Below are positions 1 through 50,075 of a stretch of 64,000 bases of DNA, one piece after another (the first letter of the stretch is position 1; each line of letters starts with the position of its first letter). The position numbers and the translations under genes were made by a program. The notes under the pieces were generated by a model. The model had not been told where the DNA came from, searched no databases, and saw nothing but the letters and a program-made list of their open reading frames with translations. Origin of the DNA: Leucobacter chromiiresistens (GTDB lineage: Bacteria; Actinomycetota; Actinomycetes; Actinomycetales; Microbacteriaceae); contig NZ_FNKB01000001.1 of the NCBI RefSeq assembly GCF_900102345.1, forward strand, positions 1-64,000. Direction: 5' to 3'.

Positions 1-197
1 AAGAAGTGCCGGCGGATCTCGTCACGCTCACGCTCGAACTCGCGGCCGGCGCGCTGATCTCCCCGCTCGGGATCTCGCGCGAGCAGGCTGGCGGCGTCTC
101 GGTGACGCTGAACCGCACCTCGAACTCGCTGCTCGTTGGCCCGGGCGGTGCCGACGCCGCGCGCCTCGAGCCGTACCGGTTGGGGGTGCTCCCGTGA
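1..197 (+). CDS. Head-tail connector protein (3' end only), copy A
   Basis: The window opens inside this gene. The first whole codon starts at base 3, and only the C-terminal 64 residues are present. The whole gene is seen at 35917-36447 (176 residues). Position right after the capsid block and before the stopper and tail-terminator genes, plus a helical segment PADLVTLTLELAAGAL, fits the gp6-like adaptors that sit under the portal in HK97-type phages. The stop TGA overlaps the GTG start of the next gene, suggesting translational coupling. Not a broken gene, just cut by the window edge. Confidence 0.75.
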   Translation, partial: EVPADLVTLTLELAAGALISPLGISREQAGGVSVTLNRTSNSLLVGPGGADAARLEPYRLGVLP

Positions 198-535
198 TCC
201 AGGACTCACCTCCCCGGCACGCCCTCATCCGCGAGCGCCCGCTCCTCGTTGACGACGGCCGCGGCGGGCACCGCTCCGACTTCACCGACGTCGTCGGCGT
301 CGACCTGCTCGGGTGGGCGCTCGATGCCGGCGCGACGACGAAGGACACCCAGAACCGCGACGGCGCGCTCATCGCGTGGACCGCGCGCGGCCCATTCGGC
401 GCCGACGTCGAACGGCACGACCGCATCACCGTGTTCGGTGAGCGGTACAAGATCAACGGCGCGGTGGTCCGTCAGCCGGGCCCGACTCCGTTGACCTCGC
501 ACACGATCCTGCTACTCGAACGATGGGACGGATGA
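194..535 (+). CDS. Head-tail stopper (head closure) protein, copy A, with local frame change
   Basis: A 113-residue protein in the slot of the head-completion stopper, which seals the portal channel after packaging. The GTG start overlaps the upstream stop (GTGA). The motif ERYKINGAVVRQPGP near the C-terminus is of the kind seen in small beta-rich stopper proteins. Compared with the second copy (36444-36785), a G is missing after base 203 and a C is added in the run 212-215, so residues 4-7 read DSPP instead of GLTS before the frame recovers. The copy B reading looks native. This could be a real mutation or a homopolymer sequencing error. Confidence 0.7.
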   Translation: MIQDSPPRHALIRERPLLVDDGRGGHRSDFTDVVGVDLLGWALDAGATTKDTQNRDGALIAWTARGPFGADVERHDRITVFGERYKINGAVVRQPGPTPLTSHTILLLERWDG

Positions 536-783
536 TGGCTACCGGTGTACGCATCAAGCTCAACAAGAAGGGCATCATCCGCCTGCTGCAGTCCCAGCAG
601 GTCGCAGACCACCTCAAGGAGCGCGGCGAGCGCATCGCCGACGCGGCCGGCCCCGGTTTCGAAGCGACTCCGCAGCTGAACAAGGACCGCGCGGTCGTGT
701 TCGTGCGTGCGGAGACCACTGAAGCACGACGCGCGCAGGCGGCGGACAACGCACTGCAGCGCGCGATCGACGCAGGGCGGTGA
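532..783 (+). CDS. HK97 gp10-like neck/tail-completion protein, copy A
   Basis: A short, basic, helical 83-residue protein between the stopper and the tail terminator, where siphophages carry the gp10-like neck protein. I chose the ATG at 532 because it forms an ATGA overlap with the preceding stop; an in-frame ATG at 523 would add three residues and one at 535 would remove one. The family assignment is from gene order, size and the conserved small-basic character, since no catalytic motif is expected. Confidence 0.6.
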   Translation: MMATGVRIKLNKKGIIRLLQSQQVADHLKERGERIADAAGPGFEATPQLNKDRAVVFVRAETTEARRAQAADNALQRAIDAGR

Positions 784-1202
784 CCGTGACCGAGCTCCTC
801 ATCCCCACCGACGTCGAAGTCGCGATCAAGCGTGAGATCGACGCGTCGCTCGTCGGCACCCAGTTCCAGGACGCGAAGGTCGGCACGAAGATCCCACTCG
901 AGCCGAAGCCGACGCACTTCATCCGCGTCACGGCGACCGGCGGCGGACAGCGCGACCTCGTTACCGATACCCCCACTGTCGTCCTGGACGCCTTCTCCGT
1001 CGATGAACAGCACGCCCGCGACCTCTCGGCCCTCGCTGTCGCTGTACTGCAGCGAGCGGGGCGCGTGGGAACGCTCGGCGGTGTGCCTTGTTACGGGGTG
1101 CGCGTCGGCGGCCTCCCCGCGAACCTCCCCCATCCGACGGTAACCACGCACTTCCGGTTCACCGCCACTGTCTCCGCCGCTCTGCGAAGAGCGTCGGTCT
1201 AG
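780..1202 (+). CDS. Tail terminator protein, copy A
   Basis: A 140-residue protein beginning at a GTG that overlaps the upstream stop. It occupies the tail-terminator slot immediately before the major tail protein. The N-terminal part (ELLIPTDVEVAIKREIDASL), then a central strand region and a basic helix (ARDLSALAVAVLQRAGRVGT), match the alpha/beta layout of phage tail terminators (gpU/DUF3168-like), which form the ring capping the tail tube and join it to the head. The assignment is by order and fold-like features, not by a diagnostic motif. Confidence 0.65.
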   Translation: MTVTELLIPTDVEVAIKREIDASLVGTQFQDAKVGTKIPLEPKPTHFIRVTATGGGQRDLVTDTPTVVLDAFSVDEQHARDLSALAVAVLQRAGRVGTLGGVPCYGVRVGGLPANLPHPTVTTHFRFTATVSAALRRASV

Positions 1203-1219
1203 GTTCCCCAACCACCCAC

Positions 1220-1247
1220 ACGCCCGGCAAACCCTGTCGGGCGTTTT
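1220..1247 (+). terminator. Hairpin terminator before major tail protein, copy A
   Basis: A 10-bp stem (ACGCCCGGCA at 1220-1229 with TGTCGGGCGT at 1235-1244, one G-T pair), 5-nt loop, then TTT. It separates the connector genes from the major tail protein gene and may set relative transcript levels. Confidence 0.6.
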
Positions 1248-1276
1248 CCGTTTCTGCCTGAAAGGGGCACCCCGCC

Positions 1277-1867
1277 ATGAGCGTGGATTCCAAGAACGTC
1301 TTTATCGGTGCGCCGGACCAGGCCGTCACCGGTGCGATCCTGTCCGGTCCCGAGACCGACACCATCCCGGCGACGATCGACGACTTCGACGTCGATGAGC
1401 TCACCGATTCCGGGTACGTGAACGAAGACGGCGTGACCATCACCCCGTCGGAGTCGACCGAGTCGATCAAGGACTGGTCGCTCAAGACCATCCGCAAGAT
1501 CCTGACCGAGTTCGAGGGCACCGTGGCGTGGTCGCACCTCGAGCTCTCGCTGGGCGCCCTGAAGAACTACATGGGCGACGACAACGTCGAGGTCACCGAC
1601 GCGACCGCGACGAAGGGCACGCAGACGCGGTCCGCGATCGCCGGCGAGCAGCGCCCCATCAAGCAGTGGGTGTTCCGCATCAAGGACGGCGCGCGTCGCG
1701 CGATCGTGTTCATCCCTCACGGCCAGATCACCGAGCGCGGCGAGATCCCCCTCGTCGCGTCCGGCGCGATCACCCTGCCGGTCACGCTGTCGACCTACCC
1801 CGACGCCGCCGGCAAGTCGATCTACATCTACACCGACGACGGCGTGGTCGCCGCATCGGGCGCGTAG
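1277..1867 (+). CDS. Major tail (tube) protein, copy A
   Basis: A 196-residue acidic, beta-rich protein with the pattern of siphophage tail-tube subunits: an N-terminal strand region, a stretch EDGVTITPSESTESIKDWS, and a central EFEGTVAWSHLELSLGALKNYMG helix-turn. It lies between the tail terminator and the two overlapping chaperone genes, the invariant position of the tube protein. It has its own leader and is flanked by hairpins on both sides (1220-1247 and 1878-1916), as expected for a gene needing a high and separate expression level. The ATG at 1277 follows GAAAGGGG. Confidence 0.9.
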   Translation: MSVDSKNVFIGAPDQAVTGAILSGPETDTIPATIDDFDVDELTDSGYVNEDGVTITPSESTESIKDWSLKTIRKILTEFEGTVAWSHLELSLGALKNYMGDDNVEVTDATATKGTQTRSAIAGEQRPIKQWVFRIKDGARRAIVFIPHGQITERGEIPLVASGAITLPVTLSTYPDAAGKSIYIYTDDGVVAASGA

Positions 1868-1877
1868 ATCCCCGACC

Positions 1878-1916
1878 AGAGCGCCCGGACGACCGGGGAA
1901 CCCGTCCGGGCGCTCT
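1878..1916 (+). terminator. Strong hairpin after major tail protein, copy A
   Basis: A perfect 14-bp stem (AGAGCGCCCGGACG 1878-1891 with CGTCCGGGCGCTCT 1903-1916) and 11-nt loop. There is no clear T-run, so it may work as an attenuator or mRNA-stabilising hairpin rather than a full stop. Confidence 0.6.
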
Positions 1917-1970
1917 GCTTCCCCCTCACGGTTCCCCACCCACAACACCCAATACCCCAGGAGGTTCCCC

Positions 1971-2342
1971 ATGGTGTTCCAGGTTCCGGCGTCGAAAGCG
2001 TCGATCAATCAGAACCGATTCGAGTTTGAACTCGACGTCCCCGCGGCGAACGGCAAGACCAAGAAGCGCAAGTTCTCGCTCCCGAAGATGCAGTTCGTGT
2101 CGTCGGACGTGCGCCACCGCATGCAGCGAGTCGGCGTGAAGATCGACGCCCTGCAGAAGGAAGGCGAGACCGTCGACCCCGCACTGCAGGTCGAAGCTGC
2201 GGAAATCCAGCGCGAGCTCATCGAGAAGTACGCGCCCGGCCTGTACGAACTCGTCACCGACGATCAGCTGCAGGCGATCCAGGAAGCGTGGCAGGAGGCG
2301 TCGAACATCGGCCTGGGGGAATCCTCGCCCTCTGCCGACTGA
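1971..2342 (+). CDS. Tail assembly chaperone, short form, copy A
   Basis: A 123-residue protein, the counterpart of lambda gpG, which binds the tape measure protein during tail assembly and is absent from virions. Evidence is its place between the tube and tape measure genes and its overlap with a second reading frame (2288-2728) in the -1 frame. A G-run slip site (2315-2321) lies seven codons before the stop, so part of the ribosomes should make a longer fusion. The ATG is preceded by CAGGAGG at good spacing. Confidence 0.85.
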   Translation: MVFQVPASKASINQNRFEFELDVPAANGKTKKRKFSLPKMQFVSSDVRHRMQRVGVKIDALQKEGETVDPALQVEAAEIQRELIEKYAPGLYELVTDDQLQAIQEAWQEASNIGLGESSPSAD

Positions 2343-2728
2343 TCGACCGGCACGAGGACGCAATCGAGTACGACCTGCTCAACGCGGGCTACTCGCTCGA
2401 CGATCTCGGCCACTCGCTCTCATGGCGCCACCTCTGGGTGCTGACGCGCAGGTGGCAAACGCTGCCCGGCACTGCCACCTGCGCGGCCGTACAGGGCCGC
2501 GAGCACTGGGGCGTGGCAGAGCAGCTTCTCGCGGAAATCATCGACCTCCTGAACATCGGCAACTGGCAGCGCGCCGGCCGCAAGCATGCGGCGAAACCGA
2601 AGCGCTTTCCCCGCCCATGGGAGAAAGCGAAAGCCCAGAAGCTCGGGTCTGACCCGATCCCAGTATCGAAGTTCTCCGACTGGTGGGACAGCTTCACCGA
2701 CAAGAAGAAGCGACGGAACCGGAGGTAG
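2288..2728 (+). CDS. Tail assembly chaperone, frameshift extension, copy A
   Basis: This frame has no convincing start of its own (the ATG at 2288 lies inside the upstream gene and has no ribosome binding site). It is most likely expressed as a C-terminal extension of the 1971-2342 protein by a -1 frameshift at 2315-2321, like lambda gpGT. The extension proper begins at ILALCRLIDRHEDAIEYDLL and carries the YSLDDLGHSLSWRHLWVL segment common in actinophage chaperones, ending with a basic tail KKKRRNRR. It ends three bases before the tape measure gene. Confidence 0.8.
   Translation: MAGGVEHRPGGILALCRLIDRHEDAIEYDLLNAGYSLDDLGHSLSWRHLWVLTRRWQTLPGTATCAAVQGREHWGVAEQLLAEIIDLLNIGNWQRAGRKHAAKPKRFPRPWEKAKAQKLGSDPIPVSKFSDWWDSFTDKKKRRNRR
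2315..2321 (+). other. Predicted programmed -1 frameshift site, copy A
   Basis: The heptamer GGGGGAA is read in the zero frame as G-GGG-GAA. Slipping back one base lets the P-site tRNA re-pair with GGG and continues into the overlapping frame as ATC-CTC-GCC. The resulting G-T fusion would be about 252 residues. Known for lambda-like tails in general; the exact slip bases here are inference. Confidence 0.7.
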
Positions 2729-2731
2729 GTC

Positions 2732-5584
2732 ATGGCCGATGGGGTCGAGCTGGCAACAGCATGGGTGCGTCTCGTGCCGTCCGTCGAGGGAATCACCGAC
2801 GGCATCACGAAGGCCGTCGTGCCGAGCATGGGGCCCGCGGGCAAGGATGCGGGGAAGCGCTTCGGTAGCGGCTTCAAGGGCGCGGCGAGCGGCTTCCTCA
2901 CCGGCGCCGTGTTCCTCGGTGTTGCCGCCGGCGTGAAGTCGTTTGTCACCGAGTCCGTGAACTCGCTCGCGCGCATCGAGAAGATCAACACGCAGACCGA
3001 GACCGTCATCAAGTCCACGGGCAACGCAGCAGGGGTATCCGCGAAGCACGTGGAAGATCTCGCGGGCGCGCTCGAGAATACGACCGCGACCGAGGCCGAA
3101 GCCACGCAGGAGGGCGCGAACCTCCTCCTCACCTTCAAGAACATCCGAAACGGTGTCGGGAAGGGCAACGACGTCTTCGATCAATCGACAAAGGCGCTCG
3201 TCGATATGTCGCGCGCGATGGGGACCGAGCCGAAGGCAGCCGCGATGCAGCTCGGCAAGGCGCTCAACGACCCGGTGAAGGGCATCACCCAGCTCACTCG
3301 CGTCGGCGTCACGTTCTCCGAAGAGCAGCAGAACACGATCAAGTCGATGGTCGAGATGGGCGACACCGCGGGCGCTCAGAAGATCATGCTCGAGGAGCTG
3401 AATTCACAGTTCGGCGGATCGGGCGAGGCGTACGCGAAGACGTACGCCGGGCAGATGGAGCTCCTCGGGCACTCGTTCGGGACGCTCGGCGAGACCATTA
3501 TGGGTGCGGTCATGCCCGCGCTGCAGGGCTTTATGAGCGGGCTCGTGCCCGTGTTTCAGTGGCTCTCCGAGAACCAGGGGGTGCTGCTCGGCGTTGCGGC
3601 CGCGATCGGGGTAACGCTCGTCGCGGCGTTCGTCGCGTGGACGGCGTCGATCTGGGCCTCAACGGTCGCGTTGCTCGCGAACCCGATGACGTGGATCGTC
3701 CTCGGCATCATGGCACTCATCGCGGCGATCGTGCTCCTGGTTGCGAACTGGGACACGGTCGTCGCGTGGATCAGTGAGGTGTGGGCGGGGTTCATCTCGT
3801 GGATCACGGGCGTCATCGACGGCTTCGTCGAGTGGTGGACGGGCGTCTGGTCCGCCATCACGCAGTTCTTCACGGACGTGTGGAACAACGTCGTGGCGTG
3901 GGTGACCGAGGTGTGGTCCGGCTTTATCTCCTGGATCACCGGCGTGATCGACGGGTTCGTTGCCTGGTGGAACGGCATCTGGAACAGCGTCGGTCAGTTC
4001 TTCTCCGACGTCTGGACCAACGTGTCGAGCTTCTTCCGCGGCATCTGGGACGGCATCGTCTCGTGGTTCCAGCAGAAGATCCTGTTCTGGCAGAACGTCT
4101 TCAAGGTCGGCCTCTACCTGTTCGTGTCGTTCTGGTCGAACACGTGGAACAACATCACGAGCTTCTTCCGGGGAATCTGGAACGGCATCGTGTCCTGGTT
4201 CCAGGAGAAGATCGCGTTCTGGCAGACCGTGTTCCGCCTCTCGCTCGCGATCCTGCGAGACACGTGGCAGAACATCTGGAACGGGATCAAGACGTTCTTC
4301 TCGAACATCTGGAACGGCATCAAGTCCGTGTTTATGACGATGATCAACTTCGTCAAGACCAAGCCCGTCGAAGCGTTCAAGGCCGCTCGCGACGCGATCG
4401 GCTCAGCGTGGAAGGGCATCCAGGAGCTCGCGAAGAAGCCGGTCCGGTTTGTCATCGACACCGTGATCAATGGCCTCATCGGGACCGTGAACAAGATCCT
4501 CCCGAAGGGGATGAAGATCCCGAAGATCGATCTCCCGAAGGGGTTCGCGGTCGGCGGCATCCTCCCCGGCATGTCGCGGATGAGCGACGGCGATAGCCAG
4601 CTCATCGCGGCCCGGCCGGGTGAGGGTGTCATGGTCTCCGAGGCCCTCCGCAGTTCGGCGGACAAGGCCGCGTTCCTCGCTGCCAACGCGGCGGGTCGGA
4701 AGGGTGTCGGCTTCGCGTCGATGCTGCAGGGCTTCGCGCGCGGCGGGCTGGTGAACCCGCTGCCGAAGGGCTCCTACTCGGTATCGCAGCCGTACCACGG
4801 CGGCCACAACGGCATCGACCTCGCCGCCGCCAGCGGCACCAGGGTCTACGCCGCGGCAGACGGCGTCGTGGGGCTCGCCGGGTCCGTCAACATGGGCGGC
4901 AACGAGGTCTACATCCAGCACGGCAACGGGCTGGGAACGCGCTACTCGCACCTCTCCCGCTTCGCGACGTCGGCCGGCACGAAGGTGAAGGCCGGCAACG
5001 TGATCGGCTATGTCGGCTCGACCGGCATGTCGACGGGCCCTCACCTGCACTACATGGTGCACAACCCGGGCGGCGGGGCCGTAAACTACGGCAGCCACGT
5101 GAACCCGGCACCGTACCTCGGCATCTACGGGAAAGACCTCGGAGAAGCCGGCGGTGCAGCGTCCATTCTCGACGGGCTTGTCGACTGGGCGGTCGGGAAG
5201 ATCAAGAGCCAGTTCCCGGGCGGCGGCCTCTGGGTCGACGTCGCGACAGCTATGGCGAAGAACGCCGCCGGTCTCATGTCGAAGGCATTCAACCCGTTCG
5301 CAGCCGCGGACGGGCACACGGCGCTGTACGACGACGGCGGGTTCCTGCCGACCGGTATCTCCCTCGTGGAGAACAAGACCGGCAGGCCGGAGCCAGTGTT
5401 CAGCCCCTCGCAGTGGTCCACGCTGCACGCCGCCGTCGACGCTCCCGAGCGCGGCGACGGCGAGGGCGTATTCCACCTGTATGACTCCGACGGTGTGCTG
5501 TTCGGCACCATCGACGGGCGCATCGCGGCCGCCTCTTCGGCGGGATCGGATCGCGTCCTGAACGACAGATTGGGAGTTCGATAG
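2732..5584 (+). CDS. Tape measure protein with M23 peptidase domain, copy A
   Basis: A 950-residue protein, the largest of the phage, which sets tail length and threads the tube. Order of parts: helical N-terminus (1-280), two hydrophobic stretches near 284-308 and 322-340, a long Trp-rich repeat region with recurring W-N-x-I-W units (about 345-560), basic helical segment, then an M23 (LytM) peptidase domain near 680-795. The zinc-site motifs GHNGIDL (about residue 690) and HLHY (about 771) are intact, so the tip may cut peptidoglycan cross-links during DNA entry. The C-terminus returns to tape-measure-like sequence. It follows the chaperones by three bases. Confidence 0.92.
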   Translation: MADGVELATAWVRLVPSVEGITDGITKAVVPSMGPAGKDAGKRFGSGFKGAASGFLTGAVFLGVAAGVKSFVTESVNSLARIEKINTQTETVIKSTGNAAGVSAKHVEDLAGALENTTATEAEATQEGANLLLTFKNIRNGVGKGNDVFDQSTKALVDMSRAMGTEPKAAAMQLGKALNDPVKGITQLTRVGVTFSEEQQNTIKSMVEMGDTAGAQKIMLEELNSQFGGSGEAYAKTYAGQMELLGHSFGTLGETIMGAVMPALQGFMSGLVPVFQWLSENQGVLLGVAAAIGVTLVAAFVAWTASIWASTVALLANPMTWIVLGIMALIAAIVLLVANWDTVVAWISEVWAGFISWITGVIDGFVEWWTGVWSAITQFFTDVWNNVVAWVTEVWSGFISWITGVIDGFVAWWNGIWNSVGQFFSDVWTNVSSFFRGIWDGIVSWFQQKILFWQNVFKVGLYLFVSFWSNTWNNITSFFRGIWNGIVSWFQEKIAFWQTVFRLSLAILRDTWQNIWNGIKTFFSNIWNGIKSVFMTMINFVKTKPVEAFKAARDAIGSAWKGIQELAKKPVRFVIDTVINGLIGTVNKILPKGMKIPKIDLPKGFAVGGILPGMSRMSDGDSQLIAARPGEGVMVSEALRSSADKAAFLAANAAGRKGVGFASMLQGFARGGLVNPLPKGSYSVSQPYHGGHNGIDLAAASGTRVYAAADGVVGLAGSVNMGGNEVYIQHGNGLGTRYSHLSRFATSAGTKVKAGNVIGYVGSTGMSTGPHLHYMVHNPGGGAVNYGSHVNPAPYLGIYGKDLGEAGGAASILDGLVDWAVGKIKSQFPGGGLWVDVATAMAKNAAGLMSKAFNPFAAADGHTALYDDGGFLPTGISLVENKTGRPEPVFSPSQWSTLHAAVDAPERGDGEGVFHLYDSDGVLFGTIDGRIAAASSAGSDRVLNDRLGVR

Positions 5585-7770
5585 TGGCTATCTCGTGGGG
5601 TCCGTATCAGAATCACGTCCGCCTCGGCATCGACGTGATCATGTCACCGAGCTCGGTCGGTACATCGACCAGCTCGGTGACGCTGACGGTGCGCACCTAT
5701 GTGCAGATGGACGGCTCGTCGTCGATCTACTACAACGGGCTCTCGCTGTCGTTCTCCGGCTCATGGTCAGGTGGCACGTCCGTGAACGTGAACCTGGGGC
5801 CAGGGCAGTCCGCCCTGATCCACACTGCGACGTTCACGCGTGCCACTTCATCCTCGAGTCAGGGACAGACGTTCAACGCGACGTTGTCGCATGTGTTCGG
5901 GTCGACGTCGATCTCGCGGGGGTTCACGATCCCCGCGAGACCGGCGGCGCCACCGCCGCGCCCGAATGCCCCCTCTGGGCTGAGCGCAGTTCGCAACTCG
6001 GATTCGCAGATCACGCTGACCTGGTCGCGCAACAGCACGTACACGAGTGTCATCGTGCAGCGCTCGACTGGGAACGGCACATGGACGCAGGTTGGCCGCC
6101 CCTCGGGGAACGCGTTTACATTCGTCGACCGCACGGTGAAGCCGAACGAGCGCTACTACTACCGCGTCTACGGCGTGAATGCGGGCGGGACGTCGCCGGT
6201 GTCCGGCACCGCGGGCCCGGTATACACGACACCGCGAATCCCCTCGCGCATCACGGCGACCCGAGTTGCTGCCGGTATTCGTGTCAACGCAGAAGAGGGT
6301 GGCCGTCCACCGTACGCGGCGTCGTACGACATCATGGACGGCTCGACCTTGGTGGCGTCCAACGTCGCCCTGCCGTGGACGCATGCGAACCCGTCGCCGA
6401 CCGCGCACGTGTACAAGGTGCGCGCAAGGATCGGGTCGCTGGCATCCGGGTGGTCGGTAGCGTCGAACGTCGTCGAGATCGCCGCACCTCCGAAGGCTCC
6501 GACAAACCTGTCCCCCAACGGGCAGGTGGTATCGAAGCTTGCGGTGCTGCTGCTGAGCTGGCGCCATAACCCGGTGGATGCCTCGGAGCAGACGGTGCGT
6601 CAGCTTCAATGGCGCAAAGCGGGCACCTCGGCCTGGACGGTGCTCACCGCGGTGTCTACGGACTCCGAAAGCGCAACCTTCGTCAGCTCTGAGGCCACCT
6701 TCGGAGAGGGTGACATCGAGTGGCAGGTGCGCACGAAGGGGCAGCACGCCGACTACAGCCCGTGGTCGGCGACAGCGACCTTCACGCTCACCTCACCGCC
6801 CAACGTCTCGATCACGTCACCGGTCTCGCCGTGGGACCAGGCGCGGGCGCTCGCCCGGTGGGACTACTCGCAGGATCTCGGCCGCCCGCAATCCTCGTGG
6901 GAAGCCGAGCTCTACGACGGCAACGACCTCCTCGTCGCGCGCCGGTCCGGCACCGGCGCAACGAACTCGGTGACGTTCCCCGACATGCTCACCGACGACG
7001 AAACGTACACCGTCAAGGTGCGCGCCGCGACGGGCACGCTCTGGTCCGACTGGGACACGTTCACCTTCACCGTCTCGTTCGTGCCGCCCGCGCTCCCGAA
7101 CATCTCGGGCGAATGGAGCGAGGACACCGGCGCCGTCACCCTCAGCGTCGGCGCCGGCGACCCCGTGCCTGGCGGGCCGCCGGTCGCAGAGACCGGCACG
7201 ATCGACCTGCTGCGGTCCGTCGATAACGGCCAGGTGTGGGAGTCCGTGCTCGCCGACAGCCCCGATGTGAACCTGATCGTGGACGATCCCGAAGCGCTGT
7301 CGAACGGGCAGACGATGTACCGCGCGATCGCGTACGCGACCGTCACCGGGGCGTCGGCCTACGCCGACATCACGGTTCTGGCGCAGTCGCAGGCGCTCTG
7401 GCTCGGCGGCGGCGAGCAGTTCGGCCTCACGGCGCGCCTGCCGTACTCGCCCAAGGTGAAGGTCGACGCCGGCCGGGAGCGCTCGGTGCAGCGCTACGAG
7501 GGGCGCAGCCGAGGCGTTGCGTACGCCGGCGAGCAGGTGACGCGCGTCGTCGACGCGTCCGGGGCGCTCATCGAGAGCGATGACGCGAACGCGACGGTGG
7601 CGCTGCTCGAGGAGCTCGCGCAGGATCCGTCACCGCTGCACCTGTACCGAGACCCGGACGGGCGCCGCATCTACGGGGTGCTCGGCTCGATCTCGCTCCC
7701 CCGCAACGGCGGCAACGCCGCGGCGATCATGTGGGGCTGGTCGTTCCAGCTCGAAGAGACCGACCGATAA
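5584..7770 (+). CDS. Distal tail/minor tail protein with fibronectin III modules, copy A
   Basis: A 728-residue protein starting at a GTG that shares one base with the tape measure stop. The N-terminal 120 residues are Ser/Thr-rich beta sequence. From about 125 on there are fibronectin type III-like modules (first module: PSGLSAVRNSDSQ to YYYRVYGVNAGGTSP), with at least two further beta modules up to about 560, and a C-terminal 150-residue region that resembles tail-tip attachment sequence. Position after the tape measure gene means distal tail or tail tip. FN3 modules in phage tails usually aid weak surface binding. It might contribute to host recognition. Confidence 0.8.
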   Translation: MAISWGPYQNHVRLGIDVIMSPSSVGTSTSSVTLTVRTYVQMDGSSSIYYNGLSLSFSGSWSGGTSVNVNLGPGQSALIHTATFTRATSSSSQGQTFNATLSHVFGSTSISRGFTIPARPAAPPPRPNAPSGLSAVRNSDSQITLTWSRNSTYTSVIVQRSTGNGTWTQVGRPSGNAFTFVDRTVKPNERYYYRVYGVNAGGTSPVSGTAGPVYTTPRIPSRITATRVAAGIRVNAEEGGRPPYAASYDIMDGSTLVASNVALPWTHANPSPTAHVYKVRARIGSLASGWSVASNVVEIAAPPKAPTNLSPNGQVVSKLAVLLLSWRHNPVDASEQTVRQLQWRKAGTSAWTVLTAVSTDSESATFVSSEATFGEGDIEWQVRTKGQHADYSPWSATATFTLTSPPNVSITSPVSPWDQARALARWDYSQDLGRPQSSWEAELYDGNDLLVARRSGTGATNSVTFPDMLTDDETYTVKVRAATGTLWSDWDTFTFTVSFVPPALPNISGEWSEDTGAVTLSVGAGDPVPGGPPVAETGTIDLLRSVDNGQVWESVLADSPDVNLIVDDPEALSNGQTMYRAIAYATVTGASAYADITVLAQSQALWLGGGEQFGLTARLPYSPKVKVDAGRERSVQRYEGRSRGVAYAGEQVTRVVDASGALIESDDANATVALLEELAQDPSPLHLYRDPDGRRIYGVLGSISLPRNGGNAAAIMWGWSFQLEETDR

Positions 7771-7785
7771 CAGGAAGGGGGCGGC

Positions 7786-8823: not shown

Positions 8824-8825
8824 GC

Positions 8826-9356: not shown

Positions 9357-9366
9357 AAGGAGCCCC

Positions 9367-9666
9367 ATGGCTGACTATCTCACTCAAGCAACGCTCGCTG
9401 AGGACTCACTGCTTCTCGCGCGCATCGCAGCATGCGCTTTCGAAGAAGGACTTGCCCGGCCGCCTGCAGCCGATCCCCGCGAATGGGCGCGCGCGCAAGC
9501 CTGGGCCTTCGCAACCCAACCGGGATGGGATGAGGCAGTGCTCCGTGCGAACGGCAACATCCAGGCGGGAGTGACAGACGAAATGATCCGCGTCGCTGCT
9601 CACAACATCGTCACTACCCACCCGCCAGCGGCTTCTCCCGAAGAACCCTCGATCCCCGCCGAGTAG
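9367..9666 (+). CDS. Hypothetical phage protein between tail tip and endolysin, copy A
   Basis: A 99-residue acidic, Ala-rich helical protein. The ATG at 9367 follows AGAAGGAG. The region DYLTQATLAEDSLLLARIAACAFEEG and then AGVTDEMIRVAAHNIV suggests three helices. Proteins of this size in this slot of actinobacterial siphophages are commonly of unknown function. I do not recognise a family. Its position suggests a late, possibly structural or lysis-associated role. Confidence 0.7.
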   Translation: MADYLTQATLAEDSLLLARIAACAFEEGLARPPAADPREWARAQAWAFATQPGWDEAVLRANGNIQAGVTDEMIRVAAHNIVTTHPPAASPEEPSIPAE

Positions 9667-9701
9667 CGGGGCACTCTCGTTCCCATAGAAAGGAGTAGCG
9701 C

Positions 9702-11120: not shown

Positions 11121-11140
11121 GCGCCCTCTCCCAAGACATT

Positions 11141-11650: not shown

Positions 11651-11742
11651 ACCAGAAAGCAACCCGTTCGCTGGCCAATACTCCATATCCTGAAGTGAAT
11701 CAACCCCTGACCTATTTTGTTTTCAATGCCAAGATTTGGCGT

Positions 11743-38978: not shown

Positions 38979-38981
38979 GTC

Positions 38982-41834: not shown

Positions 41835-44020
41835 TGGCTATCTCGTGGGGTCCGTATCAGAATCACGTCCGCCTCGGCATCGACGTGATCATGTCACCGA
41901 GCTCGGTCGGTACATCGACCAGCTCGGTGACGCTGACGGTGCGCACCTATGTGCAGATGGACGGCTCGTCGTCGATCTACTACAACGGGCTCTCGCTGTC
42001 GTTCTCCGGCTCATGGTCAGGTGGCACGTCCGTGAACGTGAACCTGGGGCCAGGGCAGTCCGCCCTGATCCACACTGCGACGTTCACGCGTGCCACTTCA
42101 TCCTCGAGTCAGGGACAGACGTTCAACGCGACGTTGTCGCATGTGTTCGGGTCGACGTCGATCTCGCGGGGGTTCACGATCCCCGCGAGACCGGCGGCGC
42201 CACCGCCGCGCCCGAATGCCCCCTCTGGGCTGAGCGCAGTTCGCAACTCGGATTCGCAGATCACGCTGACCTGGTCGCGCAACAGCACGTACACGAGTGT
42301 CATCGTGCAGCGCTCGACTGGGAACGGCACATGGACGCAGGTTGGCCGCCCCTCGGGGAACGCGTTTACATTCGTCGACCGCACGGTGAAGCCGAACGAG
42401 CGCTACTACTACCGCGTCTACGGCGTGAATGCGGGCGGGACGTCGCCGGTGTCCGGCACCGCGGGCCCGGTATACACGACACCGCGAATCCCCTCGCGCA
42501 TCACGGCGACCCGAGTTGCTGCCGGTATTCGTGTCAACGCAGAAGAGGGTGGCCGTCCACCGTACGCGGCGTCGTACGACATCATGGACGGCTCGACCTT
42601 GGTGGCGTCCAACGTCGCCCTGCCGTGGACGCATGCGAACCCGTCGCCGACCGCGCACGTGTACAAGGTGCGCGCAAGGATCGGGTCGCTGGCATCCGGG
42701 TGGTCGGTAGCGTCGAACGTCGTCGAGATCGCCGCACCTCCGAAGGCTCCGACAAACCTGTCCCCCAACGGGCAGGTGGTATCGAAGCTTGCGGTGCTGC
42801 TGCTGAGCTGGCGCCATAACCCGGTGGATGCCTCGGAGCAGACGGTGCGTCAGCTTCAATGGCGCAAAGCGGGCACCTCGGCCTGGACGGTGCTCACCGC
42901 GGTGTCTACGGACTCCGAAAGCGCAACCTTCGTCAGCTCTGAGGCCACCTTCGGAGAGGGTGACATCGAGTGGCAGGTGCGCACGAAGGGGCAGCACGCC
43001 GACTACAGCCCGTGGTCGGCGACAGCGACCTTCACGCTCACCTCACCGCCCAACGTCTCGATCACGTCACCGGTCTCGCCGTGGGACCAGGCGCGGGCGC
43101 TCGCCCGGTGGGACTACTCGCAGGATCTCGGCCGCCCGCAATCCTCGTGGGAAGCCGAGCTCTACGACGGCAACGACCTCCTCGTCGCGCGCCGGTCCGG
43201 CACCGGCGCAACGAACTCGGTGACGTTCCCCGACATGCTCACCGACGACGAAACGTACACCGTCAAGGTGCGCGCCGCGACGGGCACGCTCTGGTCCGAC
43301 TGGGACACGTTCACCTTCACCGTCTCGTTCGTGCCGCCCGCGCTCCCGAACATCTCGGGCGAATGGAGCGAGGACACCGGCGCCGTCACCCTCAGCGTCG
43401 GCGCCGGCGACCCCGTGCCTGGCGGGCCGCCGGTCGCAGAGACCGGCACGATCGACCTGCTGCGGTCCGTCGATAACGGCCAGGTGTGGGAGTCCGTGCT
43501 CGCCGACAGCCCCGATGTGAACCTGATCGTGGACGATCCCGAAGCGCTGTCGAACGGGCAGACGATGTACCGCGCGATCGCGTACGCGACCGTCACCGGG
43601 GCGTCGGCCTACGCCGACATCACGGTTCTGGCGCAGTCGCAGGCGCTCTGGCTCGGCGGCGGCGAGCAGTTCGGCCTCACGGCGCGCCTGCCGTACTCGC
43701 CCAAGGTGAAGGTCGACGCCGGCCGGGAGCGCTCGGTGCAGCGCTACGAGGGGCGCAGCCGAGGCGTTGCGTACGCCGGCGAGCAGGTGACGCGCGTCGT
43801 CGACGCGTCCGGGGCGCTCATCGAGAGCGATGACGCGAACGCGACGGTGGCGCTGCTCGAGGAGCTCGCGCAGGATCCGTCACCGCTGCACCTGTACCGA
43901 GACCCGGACGGGCGCCGCATCTACGGGGTGCTCGGCTCGATCTCGCTCCCCCGCAACGGCGGCAACGCCGCGGCGATCATGTGGGGCTGGTCGTTCCAGC
44001 TCGAAGAGACCGACCGATAA
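41834..44020 (+). CDS. Distal tail protein with fibronectin III modules, copy B
   Basis: Same 728-residue protein as 5584-7770, GTG start sharing one base with the tape measure stop. Confidence 0.8.
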   Translation: MAISWGPYQNHVRLGIDVIMSPSSVGTSTSSVTLTVRTYVQMDGSSSIYYNGLSLSFSGSWSGGTSVNVNLGPGQSALIHTATFTRATSSSSQGQTFNATLSHVFGSTSISRGFTIPARPAAPPPRPNAPSGLSAVRNSDSQITLTWSRNSTYTSVIVQRSTGNGTWTQVGRPSGNAFTFVDRTVKPNERYYYRVYGVNAGGTSPVSGTAGPVYTTPRIPSRITATRVAAGIRVNAEEGGRPPYAASYDIMDGSTLVASNVALPWTHANPSPTAHVYKVRARIGSLASGWSVASNVVEIAAPPKAPTNLSPNGQVVSKLAVLLLSWRHNPVDASEQTVRQLQWRKAGTSAWTVLTAVSTDSESATFVSSEATFGEGDIEWQVRTKGQHADYSPWSATATFTLTSPPNVSITSPVSPWDQARALARWDYSQDLGRPQSSWEAELYDGNDLLVARRSGTGATNSVTFPDMLTDDETYTVKVRAATGTLWSDWDTFTFTVSFVPPALPNISGEWSEDTGAVTLSVGAGDPVPGGPPVAETGTIDLLRSVDNGQVWESVLADSPDVNLIVDDPEALSNGQTMYRAIAYATVTGASAYADITVLAQSQALWLGGGEQFGLTARLPYSPKVKVDAGRERSVQRYEGRSRGVAYAGEQVTRVVDASGALIESDDANATVALLEELAQDPSPLHLYRDPDGRRIYGVLGSISLPRNGGNAAAIMWGWSFQLEETDR

Positions 44021-44035
44021 CAGGAAGGGGGCGGC

Positions 44036-45073
44036 ATGGACCTCACAGGAGCGCGCCGCCCCCGGTGGCTGTACACCCTCCTCGACGCCGCGGACGTGCC
44101 GCTGCGCGCGCTCGACGGCGTGAAGGGCGGCAGCTGCGAGGTCGCCGCGACCACTCGTCTCGGCGGCTCCGCATCGCTCACGATCGACGATCGCGGACAG
44201 AATATCGACTGGATGAGCCACCGGGTGCGCATCACCTACGATCCCGGCATCCGAGGCGTCGAAGCGTGGCCGATCGCCACGATGCTCTTCACCACCCCGA
44301 AGACCCGCCACGGCATGATCGTCACCCAAACGGTCGACCTGCTCTCGAAGATGTCGATCATCGACGAGGACTCCGTCGCGGCGCGCTTCAGCCTCGCCGC
44401 CGGAACTCCCATCATCCCCGCGGTCGTGAGCCTCATCCAGTCCACCGGCGAGACCCGCATCGCGGTCACCGACTCCGATGCGACGCTCACGAACGCGATG
44501 GTGTGGGAGCCGGCGGAGTCGAAGCTCACCATTATTAACGACCTGCTCGATGCCGCCGGTTACTGGGCGCTGTGGTGCGACGGCAGCGGACAGTTCCGCG
44601 TCGAGCCCTACATCGCGCCGGCCGACCGCGCGGTGTCGTTCGTGTTCGAGGCCGGCGAGGTGTCGATCCACTCCCCTGAATGGGATCAGGAGCAGGATCT
44701 CTCCTCCGTGCCGAACCGGTACATCGTCGTCGGCACCGGCTCCGACAGCGCGCCCGCGCTCTCCGCGGAGGCGATCAACGAAGACCCCGAATCGCCGTAC
44801 TCGGTGCAGAACCGGGGCCGCGTGATCACCCGCTCCGAGACCGGCGCCGAAGGCACCCTGCCCGTCCTGCAAGCCCTCGCGCAACGCCGACTCCGCGACG
44901 CCATGTCACCCGTCGCGAAGCTCGCCGTATCCCACGCGATCGTCCCCCTCGACCCCAACGACGTCGTCGACTTCCGACCACGCAACGCCGACCCCGCCCG
45001 CGCGACCATCCAGCGCATGTCCTACGGACTCACATTCGACGGCCAATGCTCTGCCGAGTGGAGGGAGGTGTGA
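44036..45073 (+). CDS. Minor tail protein (Gp37-like), copy B
   Basis: Same 345-residue tail-tip protein as 7786-8823. Confidence 0.72.
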   Translation: MDLTGARRPRWLYTLLDAADVPLRALDGVKGGSCEVAATTRLGGSASLTIDDRGQNIDWMSHRVRITYDPGIRGVEAWPIATMLFTTPKTRHGMIVTQTVDLLSKMSIIDEDSVAARFSLAAGTPIIPAVVSLIQSTGETRIAVTDSDATLTNAMVWEPAESKLTIINDLLDAAGYWALWCDGSGQFRVEPYIAPADRAVSFVFEAGEVSIHSPEWDQEQDLSSVPNRYIVVGTGSDSAPALSAEAINEDPESPYSVQNRGRVITRSETGAEGTLPVLQALAQRRLRDAMSPVAKLAVSHAIVPLDPNDVVDFRPRNADPARATIQRMSYGLTFDGQCSAEWREV

Positions 45074-45075
45074 GC

Positions 45076-45606
45076 ATGCCCGACGTCCTCGCACCGATCG
45101 TCGATCGGATCGCCGCGCTCGCCGCAGCGGTCCGCGGTGCCCCTCACTTCGAGTGGGGCACCGTGGCGTCTTCGTCACCGCTCACGGTGCAACTCGACGG
45201 CGACAGCGAGCCGATGCTCGGTACCCCCTCAAGGCTCGTTTCGAACTTGTCCCCCGGTGAACGGGTGCTCGTCATGATTCAGAACCGCCGCGCGACAGTA
45301 GTCGGCCGCGGCGGCGGGACCGTATACCGGAGCGGTGAGGTACTGGTCTCCACCGGAACCCTCACCAACATCAGCGGCACGGGCACCTATGGAACGACGC
45401 TCACCTTCACAGTCCCTGCAGTCCCCCCACCCGGCTGCGCCGTCCGTGTTGAAGCCCTTCGTGTCGGCACCGGATACGGGAGCATCGCACTCGTAAGCCA
45501 AGCCCCTGGGGTATCAAGCACGACCGTGACTATCCGCTTCACACAAGTTGGGGCGGGCACAGCTCAGACGCTCACCGTTCGCTGGGAGATCGTCCCGAAC
45601 TCGTAG
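45076..45606 (+). CDS. Small minor tail protein, copy B
   Basis: Same 176-residue protein as 8826-9356; ATG two bases after the preceding stop. Confidence 0.65.
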   Translation: MPDVLAPIVDRIAALAAAVRGAPHFEWGTVASSSPLTVQLDGDSEPMLGTPSRLVSNLSPGERVLVMIQNRRATVVGRGGGTVYRSGEVLVSTGTLTNISGTGTYGTTLTFTVPAVPPPGCAVRVEALRVGTGYGSIALVSQAPGVSSTTVTIRFTQVGAGTAQTLTVRWEIVPNS

Positions 45607-45616
45607 AAGGAGCCCC

Positions 45617-45916
45617 ATGGCTGACTATCTCACTCAAGCAACGCTCGCTGAGGACTCACTGCTTCTCGCGCGCATCGCAGCATGCGCTTTCGAAGAAGGA
45701 CTTGCCCGGCCGCCTGCAGCCGATCCCCGCGAATGGGCGCGCGCGCAAGCCTGGGCCTTCGCAACCCAACCGGGATGGGATGAGGCAGTGCTCCGTGCGA
45801 ACGGCAACATCCAGGCGGGAGTGACAGACGAAATGATCCGCGTCGCTGCTCACAACATCGTCACTACCCACCCGCCAGCGGCTTCTCCCGAAGAACCCTC
45901 GATCCCCGCCGAGTAG
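45617..45916 (+). CDS. Hypothetical phage protein before endolysin, copy B
   Basis: Same 99-residue helical protein as 9367-9666; family not recognised. Confidence 0.7.
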   Translation: MADYLTQATLAEDSLLLARIAACAFEEGLARPPAADPREWARAQAWAFATQPGWDEAVLRANGNIQAGVTDEMIRVAAHNIVTTHPPAASPEEPSIPAE

Positions 45917-45951
45917 CGGGGCACTCTCGTTCCCATAGAAAGGAGTAGCGC

Positions 45952-46590
45952 ATGACTGGAGTCATCTGGCCTGCGGTCAAGCCGCGAGTCACCGAAGAAG
46001 CCGGCACCCGCAACGGCACTCACACGGGCATCGATCTCGCTGCCGAGCGCGGAGATCCGGTCCTTGCACCGTTTGACGGGACCGTCGTGTTTGTCGGCGG
46101 AGACGGCGCATCCGGTCGCCTCTGGCTCGGTGATCGGTGGCTGTACCCCAACGGGCAAGGCCGCACGGTCGAAATCCAACGCGCGGACGGGCTCATCTCC
46201 CGTGTCGGCCACCTCGAGGGATACAACGTGCGCGTGGGCGACAAGGTGCGCGCCGGCGACGTCACCGGGTACGCGGGTGACTCCGGTTACTCGACCGGCG
46301 TGCACATCCACTGGGAGCTGCGCTGGGACCGCGCATGGAACGGCGGCCGCTGGATCAACCCGCGCAGCGTCGCACCCACGACGTTCACCGCACAACAGTC
46401 ACTCACCACGATTCACGAGGAGGAAGACATGCTCATCAATCTGCGAGGCAAGACGGGCTCACACAAGGCCGGGCTCTACCTGTTCAAGGGTGGCAAGGCC
46501 ACGTACCGAGGGAAGAAGCAGAGCGGTTTCCCGACGCTGAGCGACCTGACGATCATCGCCGGTCTGTTCAAGGAGTACAAGCTCTCATGA
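45952..46590 (+). CDS. Endolysin, M23 family peptidase, copy B
   Basis: Same 212-residue lysin as 9702-10340 with zinc motifs HTGIDL and HIHW and a basic C-terminal module. Confidence 0.88.
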   Translation: MTGVIWPAVKPRVTEEAGTRNGTHTGIDLAAERGDPVLAPFDGTVVFVGGDGASGRLWLGDRWLYPNGQGRTVEIQRADGLISRVGHLEGYNVRVGDKVRAGDVTGYAGDSGYSTGVHIHWELRWDRAWNGGRWINPRSVAPTTFTAQQSLTTIHEEEDMLINLRGKTGSHKAGLYLFKGGKATYRGKKQSGFPTLSDLTIIAGLFKEYKLS

Positions 46591-46688
46591 GCGCGACGGT
46601 GGTGGTGCTGCTGGTCGCCGCGTTCTGTCTCGTGGTTCTCGGCGGCATCATCGCTGTCCGGCAGTGGTTCGAGCGGCGGTCCAAATGA
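46587..46688 (+). CDS. 33-residue membrane protein of the lysis cassette, copy B
   Basis: Same single-helix protein as 10337-10438, ATGA-coupled on both sides. Confidence 0.7.
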   Translation: MSATVVVLLVAAFCLVVLGGIIAVRQWFERRSK

Positions 46689-47068
46689 CAGAACCCATTT
46701 GGGTCGCCCTCATCGTCGCGATGCAGGGTGTCGTAGTCGCTCTCATCAGCAAGGTCACGATCGATGCGCGCCGCACGAAGCGATCGACTGAGGCCGTCAA
46801 AGAGCAAGTCGCGAACTCGCACGTGCTCCCGAACGGCGAGCCGTACAACCTGCGCGACAACATCGACCACAACCAGTTGGCCGTGCTCGGCGAGATTCGA
46901 GGCATCCGCCGTGACATCGGCCGGCTCGACCAGCGTGACATCGAGCGCGGCCGCGAGATGCGCGAACTGCACGTCAAGATCGACGAGCTCGGAACGGCCG
47001 ACCGCGGCGCAGCCGACCGTCTCACCAACATCGAGGACACTCTCGACCTACGAAAGGACCGCCCGTAA
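46685..47068 (+). CDS. Membrane-anchored coiled-coil protein, copy B
   Basis: Same 127-residue protein as 10435-10818, N-terminal anchor and charged helix. Confidence 0.72.
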   Translation: MTEPIWVALIVAMQGVVVALISKVTIDARRTKRSTEAVKEQVANSHVLPNGEPYNLRDNIDHNQLAVLGEIRGIRRDIGRLDQRDIERGREMRELHVKIDELGTADRGAADRLTNIEDTLDLRKDRP

Positions 47069-47370
47069 TGGAGATCCAGATTCCCGCGATCCCCGCCGGC
47101 GTACTGACGCTCCTCGCGTTCTTCAGCCCGTTCGCGATCGCGCTCATCAACCACCCGAGCTGGCCTTCAGGTTCCAAGCGCATCGTATCGATCGTCGTGA
47201 GTGTCGTGCTCGCCGCGATCGTGCTCGTGCTGTACTTCGTGATGACGGGCGACGTCGTGCCGCACTGGCCCGTGTTCGTGCTTCTCGCGATCGTCGTGCA
47301 GCAAGCCGCCTACGCACTCATACTGAAGACCTCCGCGAAGAACATCGAAGGAAAGTACGGCGCGCACTGA
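47068..47370 (+). CDS. Holin, copy B
   Basis: Same 100-residue, three-helix membrane protein as 10818-11120. Confidence 0.8.
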   Translation: MEIQIPAIPAGVLTLLAFFSPFAIALINHPSWPSGSKRIVSIVVSVVLAAIVLVLYFVMTGDVVPHWPVFVLLAIVVQQAAYALILKTSAKNIEGKYGAH

Positions 47371-47390
47371 GCGCCCTCTCCCAAGACATT

Positions 47391-47429
47391 GCGCCCCCTC
47401 CTAGCCTCCGGGCTGGGAGGGGGCGCTTT
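47391..47429 (+). terminator. Late operon terminator, copy B
   Basis: Second copy of the 16-bp TCCG-loop terminator at 11141-11179. Confidence 0.85.
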
Positions 47430-47549
47430 CGTCGTTCTCCGATGCCCCTTCTAGTGTCAAGGCCTGCATCTCCTTCCCTCGGCCCGCTCTACTGGAATGT
47501 GAAGGATGCCAACGGCCGACGCTGGCCACCGACGGAAGGACGACCACTC

Positions 47550-47900
47550 ATGGGATCGATCAGGTACGACGGACTCACGATTCACTTCAACGACCGCCTG
47601 CTTGCGCACATGCAGGTAGTCATCGTGCAGAAGATCATGCGTGAGGAATCGTTCCTCATGGCTTGGAAGAATGGGACGAGCGCGGGCGAGGGCCGCACCG
47701 CGATCTGGATAGCTCCAAGCACGCGACTGACGTTCAGCTTCGAGGAGAGTGAGATGCCGGACATGGATGAGGAGTGGTTGCAGCGCCTCGGCGAGTCCGC
47801 GAACTCGAACACGGGAATGATCGTGACTGAGGCAGACGGATCGTTGGCTCGCGCAGAAGCAGCAGACACTCCATACCCGGGAAATCTGCCGGATGCTTAG
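47550..47900 (+). CDS. DUF7882-type accessory protein 1, copy B
   Basis: Same 116-residue protein as 11300-11650; paralogue of the next gene; function unknown. Confidence 0.75.
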   Translation: MGSIRYDGLTIHFNDRLLAHMQVVIVQKIMREESFLMAWKNGTSAGEGRTAIWIAPSTRLTFSFEESEMPDMDEEWLQRLGESANSNTGMIVTEADGSLARAEAADTPYPGNLPDA

Positions 47901-47992
47901 ACCAGAAAGCAACCCGTTCGCTGGCCAATACTCCATATCCTGAAGTGAATCAACCCCTGACCTATTTTGTTTTCAATGCCAAGATTTGGCGT

Positions 47993-48322
47993 ATGGGGTA
48001 TTTGAAACACGGTGGACGGGAATACGAATTTGAAGACAGGTTGCTCGCGCACCTGCAGTTCGTGATCGGGCAGAAACTGAAAAAGCAGGAGAGCTTCTTC
48101 CTGAGCTGGAATAAGGCCCACGATCAGGGCGATGGAAGGGTGTCGGTATGGTTGTCGCCCTACACGGGCGTCGCATTCCATTTCTCCGGTAGCCGGGAGC
48201 CCGAGCTGAGCAAGGCGTGGGTTCGGGCGCTCAACGCGCTGGCGCACACGCCCCGGGGGCTTCTCGCGATCAGCGAAGACGAAGCCAATAGGTTCGTGAA
48301 GAACAATCCCGACCTGACGTAA
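47993..48322 (+). CDS. DUF7882-type accessory protein 2, copy B
   Basis: Same 109-residue protein as 11743-12072, with the same A+T-rich leader. Confidence 0.75.
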   Translation: MGYLKHGGREYEFEDRLLAHLQFVIGQKLKKQESFFLSWNKAHDQGDGRVSVWLSPYTGVAFHFSGSREPELSKAWVRALNALAHTPRGLLAISEDEANRFVKNNPDLT

Positions 48323-48328
48323 GACTAA

Positions 48329-48368
48329 AAGGACGGTCCCTCTCGGAGTTCTGAGAGGGACCGTCCTT
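48329..48368. terminator. Bidirectional terminator after DUF7882 pair, copy B
   Basis: Second copy of the perfect 16-bp stem at 12079-12118. Confidence 0.85.
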
Positions 48369-48486
48369 CGTCGTATCCCGGTTGATGTATGGGGTACACG
48401 GTAGCCCGGGGCGACGCGACCAGAGTGCAACACTGCACACCGTCTGAGTAAGCCGTTGACCTCTCCGCGGAGCAGAAGCTATAGGC

Positions 48487-48774
48487 TCACGTGTGCAACG
48501 GCCCGCCTCCATTCGGCGGCCCCGACGTCTTCCGCTGCGCATGCGCAATGTGCGCCGCATTGTCGTACAGCACCGACGCGTCCGCCTGCTCGAGCGTCGG
48601 GAAGATACCCGTCATGCGCCGCTGCGCCGGATCGAGAGCCCACTTCAGCACCAGGAACCGCGCCTCACCCGTCGTGTCCGTGACGCGGTTCACGATCGCG
48701 GTCGGGTGATCCTTCGCGCTGCGCATGATCACCCACGTGTCCGCGTCGAGGCGGACCGGTGCAGGTCTACTCAT
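48487..48774 (-). CDS. Small hypothetical protein on the opposite strand, copy B
   Basis: Same 95-residue frame as 12237-12524 (MSRPAPVRLDADTW start chosen; 48783 and 48930 are in-frame alternatives). Confidence 0.55.
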   Translation of the reverse strand: MSRPAPVRLDADTWVIMRSAKDHPTAIVNRVTDTTGEARFLVLKWALDPAQRRMTGIFPTLEQADASVLYDNAAHIAHAQRKTSGPPNGGGPLHT

Positions 48775-48919
48775 GCGCAGCATCGTACGTCGTGCCGTCG
48801 ACACTGGGACGGCAGGGTGATCTTCCGGGTGATCTCGTGTCGTCTGCGCATCAGTCTGTGGCACGCTAGGGAGAAGTCGGATCGCGTCGGTGCGGTCCTC
48901 TGAATAGATCGGAATCGCA

Positions 48920-49648
48920 ATGGCGGACATTGCTGCAGGTTGGTACGACGACGGCTCGGGACGACAGCGCTGGTGGGACGGATCGGCATGGACCGATCAG
49001 TTCGCTGAGGAGCAGCCCGCCGCTCCTGAACGCTCGAGCGCCATGCAGAAGGCCGCGTCCCAGATGCAGTCATTTGGTCGCAAAATGACGAACAAACACG
49101 ACCTCAGTGGCGATGAGGATGCGATCTGGACGGCAGTGGGCAAGCCGCTCACTGGGATTGGCGGCGGACGTTACAAGCTCACCGCAGAATACCTGATCTT
49201 CGAGGTCGGCACGCTCTCGTCGCGCGGCCAGCAGATTCGTACACGCGAGATCTTCGATGTTGATTCCTCGCAGACGATGGCGCAAAAGGCCCGAGGCGTA
49301 GGGAACATCACCCTTCAGGCCCGACGAGAGTCTGGCGAGGAGAAGGTCACCCTGCAGGACATCACGAACTTCCGGGAGGGCGTGAACATCATCAACCGCG
49401 TCTCCGATGAAGCCAGGCATTCGCATAGCCTGCGGGAGCGCACCTCACACTCAACGGTCTCCTACAATGGTCAGCCGCATTCCACTTCAGCCCCGCCGGC
49501 CGCCGCGCCTCCCGTCACGACCGTGGCCGAGGCATCAGGCGCGAGTGATCTGAACAGCGAACTCGAGCGTCTCGCAGCCCTCAAGGCGCAAGGCGTTCTC
49601 GACGATGAGGAGTTCAAAGCTGCGAAGCGGAAGCTGCTCGGTCTCTAG
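48920..49648 (+). CDS. DUF2510-PH domain-SHOCT protein, copy B
   Basis: Same 242-residue protein as 12670-13398. In this copy it is close to the chromosomal end of the prophage, the typical place for genes active in the lysogen. Confidence 0.8.
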   Translation: MADIAAGWYDDGSGRQRWWDGSAWTDQFAEEQPAAPERSSAMQKAASQMQSFGRKMTNKHDLSGDEDAIWTAVGKPLTGIGGGRYKLTAEYLIFEVGTLSSRGQQIRTREIFDVDSSQTMAQKARGVGNITLQARRESGEEKVTLQDITNFREGVNIINRVSDEARHSHSLRERTSHSTVSYNGQPHSTSAPPAAAPPVTTVAEASGASDLNSELERLAALKAQGVLDDEEFKAAKRKLLGL

Positions 49649-49733
49649 AGCCGCACAGCCCCATCACTCGACAAGCACCCCCTGGTTCTGAGCTTTTGCT
49701 CCGCGCGAGGGGGTGCTTCACTTTTGTGCGGCT
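49649..49733 (+). terminator. Nested double hairpin, copy B
   Basis: Second copy of the nested hairpin at 13399-13483; insulates the tRNA region from prophage transcription. Confidence 0.75.
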
Positions 49734-49747
49734 GCCAGCATGGACGG

Positions 49748-50005
49748 ATGAAGGATGAATACGGTTACCGTCTACCCACCGAGGCTGAGTGCCTCAAGGT
49801 CGCAGGTCGCGCTCTCACCAAAGGCATCCTCCGAACCATGTCTATGGATCCGCACGAAGCGGCACTCGGCGCCTACATCCCGAACGTCACGCCCTCTGTA
49901 GAAGAACTCGAGGCCCAGATCCGCGGCTTTCATGCGGAAGCAGAAGCCAGGGCTGCGAAAAAGTGTGGGCAAAATGTGGGCAAACACCCAAACGGCGACA
50001 GTTAG
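49748..50005 (+). CDS. Small hypothetical protein next to attR, copy B
   Basis: Same 85-residue protein as 13498-13755; its end again spells the 20-bp arm-type repeat (49963-49982). Confidence 0.6.
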   Translation: MKDEYGYRLPTEAECLKVAGRALTKGILRTMSMDPHEAALGAYIPNVTPSVEELEAQIRGFHAEAEARAAKKCGQNVGKHPNGDS

Positions 50006-50075
50006 AAGCCGCCGCGATCCCAGTCATAGCAACGATTATCGCTTAAGAGATTGCGGTGCCCCGGATAGGAATCGA
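49963..50075. other. attR: prophage right end in tRNA-Arg
   Basis: The left arm repeat (49963-49982) and the core (50057-50075) are present; the right arm repeat found at 13921-13940 is absent because chromosome follows. Identity with the phage-phage junction ends at base 50075. The core is at least 19 bp; its left limit cannot be fixed without the unoccupied chromosomal site. Confidence 0.88.

Follow-up and report, generated by a model that had tools for sequence, protein, structure and literature searches.

A prophage at a tRNA-Arg gene of a Leucobacter-like actinobacterium, with an attP junction near a contig end

The prophage and its gene content

The DNA analysed here (the window) is a stretch of 64,000 bases that corresponds to C1:1-64000; base 1 of the window is base 1 of contig C1 and hence a contig end. 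The assembly consists of two contigs, C1 (2,823,343 bases) and C2 (391,652 bases), and five sampled stretches have a G+C content of 68-72%. Within the window lies one whole prophage unit of 36,250 bp (13826-50075, copy B), its extent given by the spacing of two copies of an attachment core. The start of C1 is taken up by a partial copy of the same phage (1-13825, copy A), which comprises its right 13.8 kb including the core. All features are on the plus strand unless the minus strand is indicated.

At the left end of the unit, a gene for a tyrosine integrase (13865-15052, minus strand; phrog_1, E 1.4e-68; Pfam PF00589, E 2.1e-18) starts 39 bp beyond the core. It is accompanied on the same strand by an M78/ImmA-like metalloprotease (15745-16227; PF06114, E 1.6e-9) and by a protein with a weak helix-turn-helix match that falls below Pfam's cut-off (16237-16815). 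The plus strand encodes a RuvC-like Holliday junction resolvase (17982-18581; phrog_159), an exonuclease that matches phrog_1674 and is without a Pfam match (19688-20557), and a primase-polymerase/helicase (21514-23979; phrog_2478, PF09250, PF08706). Packaging and head functions are represented by the small (29510-29968; PF23931, E 2.4e-17) and large (29895-31628; phrog_9) terminase subunits, the portal protein (31700-33592; phrog_2662), the head maturation protease (33604-34353; phrog_3244) and the major capsid protein (34371-35603; phrog_10). Head-tail adaptor and head closure genes follow at 35917-36785 (phrog_442, phrog_501), the first of which contains base 36251, the equivalent of base 1. 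Further downstream are the major tail protein (37527-38117; phrog_117), the tape measure protein with an M23-like stretch (38982-41834; phrog_58, phrog_971) and an M23 peptidase that is an endolysin candidate (45952-46590; PF01551, E 5.5e-23). The M23-like peptidase stretch of the tape measure protein spans about residues 663-800 and is distinct from the M23 peptidase encoded at 45952-46590. The PHROGs and Pfam scans covered 20 proteins each, some proteins being in both, and several had no match; neither a repressor nor a holin was identified among the proteins scanned. Terminase, portal, protease, capsid, connectors, tail, tape measure and M23 peptidase together amount to a gene set for packaging, lysis and the building of head and tail, and judged by its genes the unit is apparently a complete 36,250-bp temperate prophage of the siphovirus type.

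Elsewhere on the same contig, at C1:675074-676403, there is another capsid gene, which is diverged (33% identity) and contains an internal TAG, and a 79-bp stretch adjoining it is 86% identical to window positions 29378-29455. This region is probably the remnant of a related prophage.

The attachment site

A 21-bp core is common to attL on C2, to the junction at 13805-13825 and to attR at 50055-50075, and it constitutes the 3' end of a tRNA-Arg(CCT) gene. This attachment gene is whole at attR (50055-50129, minus strand), where it was identified by ARAGORN and matches Rfam RF00005 at 50057-50129 with 69.5 bits. At 13805-13825 the core joins the right end of the phage to its left end. It is flanked by an exact 21-bp repeat resembling integrase arm sites, with one copy on the right-end (P) side at 13712-13732 and the other on the left-end (P') side at 13920-13940; with up to 3 mismatches allowed, the window contains three matches to the repeat, the remaining one of which, at 49962, belongs to the second copy, where shuffled sequences lead one to expect none. 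An 11-bp inverted pair is present at 13680 and 13854. The junction has the anatomy of an attP and looks like a true one, and the flanking repeats may be the arm sites of the integrase. The assembly contains all three junctions, attL, attP and attR, in addition to one full unit.

When the chromosomal flank on C2 is joined to the flank to the right of attR, the composite aligns through the core to an empty site (L111) in the relative G009 with 88% identity over 3,051 columns. C1 and C2 therefore neighbour one and the same integration site. In a second relative, G002, the joined flanks align in two pieces. The core of G002 is identical, and that of G009 differs by one base and has extra bases just to its left. 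An integrase gene beside the core, a core shared by attL and attR, an empty site and the gene set are all present, and the element belongs to the integrated temperate phages that use a tyrosine integrase. Its excision is plausible because it combines a whole-phage gene set with an attP bordered by arm-like repeats.

The core, with at most 3 mismatches, also occurs at 5 of 79 integrase loci, in every case at a distance of 55-97 bp beyond the integrase match; two of these loci (L031 and L032) have the orientation seen in the window and three the opposite one. A tRNA gene was looked for in L031 and L032, and none was found. Within the phage itself, ARAGORN predicted a tRNA-Thr(TGT) at 35780-35860, antisense to a small phage ORF; this prediction has no Rfam support and was treated as false.

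To the right of the tRNA gene, the window contains at 50163-50268 an element of ~75-105 bp that recurs with roughly 73-86% identity at many places on C1 and, among the matches listed, in the relatives G009, G002 and G025. It is often matched on both strands, is probably an imperfect palindrome and may belong to a dispersed intergenic repeat family.

The repeat and the state of the assembly

Bases 1-13825 recur at 36251-50075 with a period of exactly 36,250. In an ungapped comparison the two copies differ at 8 positions, all of them within 204-212, and past base 13825 the identity between the period-shifted sequences falls to 29%; the repeat is far beyond chance. The differences amount to two compensating one-base homopolymer indels that cancel in frame, and the IMG/VR record UViG_2548876797_000002 carries the letters of copy B at this place, not those of copy A. 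They are most likely consensus errors at the contig end. A preliminary description of this DNA had reported both the 36250-bp period and an attP-like core at the junction of the copies: the former is exact, and the latter is borne out by the 21-bp core, its flanking repeats and the adjacent integrase gene.

The IMG/VR record in question (IMGVR_UViG_2548876797_000002) equals window positions 21075-50005 over the stretches compared (25,126 of 28,931 bases). It likely derives from a different assembly since its left end lies inside a gene. On the right it ends at an ORF stop, as a trimmed provirus would, and because it stops 49 bp before the core the record cannot separate attP from attR.

The preliminary description had predicted that a true dimer would have an attL about 22.4 kb to the left of base 1. 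An attL does exist; it is found on C2 and is not contiguous with base 1. Read in reverse, C2 leads from the chromosome through the attL core into the phage (equivalent to window positions 13805-27139) and terminates there, its phage portion measuring 13,329 bp (about 13.3 kb). Relative to the window this tail has 18 one-base indels, all inside the last 4.3 kb of the C2 end (1 mismatch and 17 gap openings in a second alignment), and at 18 of these 18 places the IMG/VR record sides with the window. A second copy of the 9,111 bp equivalent to window positions 27140-36250 was not found in the genome, which holds short diverged matches to them elsewhere, and the major capsid gene of the phage occurs a single time in the assembly.

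At their far (right) ends, C1 and C2 share a tail-to-tail overlap of ~10.8 kb, in opposite orientation and with 99.6% identity, and they have been left unmerged. This overlap includes 36 indel columns, 30 of which fall in the final 3.3 kb of C1; another alignment of the same stretch counts 4 mismatches and 31 gap openings. Since C1 and C2 both end in the phage and overlap at their other ends, C1 and C2 make up one circle whose sole break lies inside the phage, and by arithmetic a circular chromosome with one prophage would measure about 3,177,070 bp. Indel-type differences are seen at the start of C1 (204-212), in the phage tail of C2 and in the overlapping tails of C1 and C2. The assembly, presumably a long-read one, is unfinished and its contig tails are poor and thin. 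With 2 indels in 13.8 kb, the tail of C1 that carries attP is cleaner than the attL-bearing tail of C2, where 13.3 kb contain 18; the difference is a hint that reads crossing attP were not rare, this being a single comparison whose outcome polishing could also cause.

Toy assemblies of single and tandem prophages

The behaviour of such a locus was modelled by a toy best-overlap assembly with reads of mean ~7 kb and maximum 20 kb, 40-fold cover and exact overlaps of at least 2 kb. Sixty runs were made per model with one random seed; the procedure represents the mechanism only and not a real assembler. The pattern observed here, an attP-attR contig plus an attL tail, arose in 18 of 60 runs for a chromosome with two tandem copies. 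For a single prophage accompanied by 0.05, 0.2, 0.5, 1 or 3 circles per chromosome it arose in 2, 11, 11, 18 and 10 of 60 runs, respectively. Other outcomes were the mirror image (an attL-attP contig), a resolved single copy, accompanied or not by an attP contig, and separate attL and attR contigs with no contig for attP. Both copies were placed in one contig in none of the 60 dimer runs, and a dimer can even pass for a single prophage, as 17 of 60 such runs resolved one copy together with an attP contig. Within this model the contig pattern fails to separate a dimer from circles unless circles are rare, and it suggests that attP was not scarce in the sequenced material.

A probable single active prophage with free circles, or possibly a tandem pair

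The preliminary description had left two readings side by side, a tandem double prophage and a circular phage folded into the assembly. The phage, its site and the attP-type core on which it built are real. The tandem arrangement, for its part, stands unproven, with no link from the chromosome through copy A and copy B back to the chromosome and with 9,111 bp that lack a second copy; the circular phage is the likelier half of the two. Its caution about a contig end was well placed: base 1 is the end of C1, the very circumstance that it had named as speaking against a true dimer.

We consider that the locus probably holds one integrated, active prophage and that free circular phage DNA was present beside it. 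The phage of 36,250 bp would have integrated once, by means of its tyrosine integrase, at the 3' end of the tRNA-Arg(CCT) gene, and part of the phage DNA in the culture would have been excised and circular, or replicating from a circle, such that some long reads crossed attP. The assembler would then have faced a branch at which attL, attP and attR all lead into an identical 36-kb unit spanned by no read; coming from the prophage, it would have followed attP leftwards until the reads ended at base 1, and the attL side would have been left as the end of C2. The evidence for free circles is the attP junction at 13805-13825, bordered on either side by an arm-like repeat, which a dimer predicts just as well, and we infer that the attP reads came from free circles and not from a second integrated copy. 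Induced prophages with reads across attP are met more often than identical tandem lysogens, and it is this prior, not a result of the analysis, that favours a single prophage with circles. What speaks against it is that, going by the toy assemblies, excision would have to be fairly frequent, given that 0.05 circles per chromosome produced the pattern so seldom.

A true tandem double lysogen, in which a second, identical phage inserted at an att site of the first to give attL-phage-attP-phage-attR with two identical direct copies, is the less likely alternative, to which we grant an appreciable chance. It accounts for the existence of attL, attP and attR with the same 21-bp core, it generated the contig pattern in the toy runs, and the cleaner attP tail would fit attP reads equal in frequency to attL reads. 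There is, moreover, an actinobacterial precedent for tandem prophages at a single site: in the parts of PMC9934374 that deal with them, Mycobacterium abscessus T36 and its kin carry the tandem prophages prophiT36-2a/2b at one att site, an arrangement that the authors ascribe to integrase-mediated insertion. Those are two different phages, whereas the copies here are identical and only one of them is whole in the assembly. Passages of PMC8112680 likewise describe tandem or nested prophages in E. coli. Against a dimer, no contig joins both flanks via two copies, the 9,111 bp were not found again and the capsid gene occurs once, an argument that is weak as toy dimers never appeared in one contig; in addition, nothing observed requires a second chromosomal copy. 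One also expects identical tandem lysogens to be unstable. Continuity from chromosome through attL, copy, attP, copy and attR to chromosome is not seen in this assembly, which does not mean that the cell lacks it. That this Leucobacter-like isolate is a stable, sequence-identical double lysogen, keeping two copies side by side despite the attP between them, is a tentative proposition that we think rather unlikely. A decision between dimer and circle from the quality of the contig ends was dropped, as it would depend on one comparison in which polishing history may matter, and the difference is kept as a hint only.

Two further explanations concern the assembly and the copies themselves. A chimeric join made by the assembler, without any attP molecule in the sample, might be suspected from a junction 13.8 kb from a contig end in an unfinished assembly; it is very improbable, as the join falls exactly on the core common to attL and attR and adjoins the integrase, and a 21-bp core would by itself be too short for a long-read overlap. 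That the locus comprises two slightly diverged copies, with copy A mutated at 204-212, would explain the two indels by which copy A departs from copy B and is scarcely credible: the indels cancel in frame, lie ~200 bp from the contig end and are changes in homopolymer length, the separate IMG/VR record holds the letters of copy B, and differences of the same kind occur at other contig ends.

Relationship to known phages and prophages

The anatomy is that of a lambda-type prophage that integrates into a tRNA gene by a tyrosine integrase: the integrase gene beside attP, a core equal to the 3' end of the tRNA, repeats flanking the core, attL and attR, and an empty attB in a relative are all alike, and no difference that matters was noted, the arm sites being putative here. 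The nearest integrases are from Leucobacter, with identities of 69% (Leucobacter chironomi, the best), 64% and 67%, the last for a match to part of the protein. Of 50,697 phage records, 786 contain a capsid relative, and in 784 of these the identity is below 60%; the best 20 of the 786 have 47-60% identity and without exception actinobacterial hosts. Among these 20 are siphoviruses with HK97-type heads such as Arthrobacter phage Shoya and Microbacterium phage Eden, whose capsid proteins are homologous, and several of the siphoviruses listed have a maturation protease annotated beside the capsid gene, as in the present phage. In contrast, similarity at the DNA level is confined to short matches in 45 records (the best 20 of these cover 2% of the query at 71-72% identity), so this phage represents a different lineage.

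Prophage Tracer reportedly searches for reads that contain attP or attB. The tool recognises active prophages from split reads in sequence data (PMC8682789). In such cases the junction is seen in the reads, whereas here it has been built into a contig.

Implications for prophage biology in Leucobacter

The sequence of the locus by itself is compatible with one inserted copy accompanied by free circles and with two copies in a row. Either reading, an active prophage with circles or a tandem lysogen, is of an already known kind, and there is nothing new in kind. The finding carries a caution: a phage repeat at a contig end with an attP seam points to a prophage that is active or doubled and that the assembly process failed to resolve, and only single-molecule evidence would justify calling it a tandem prophage. 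For the Leucobacter group the locus yields an apparently complete phage with a precisely located attachment site, and an indication that this phage forms attP.
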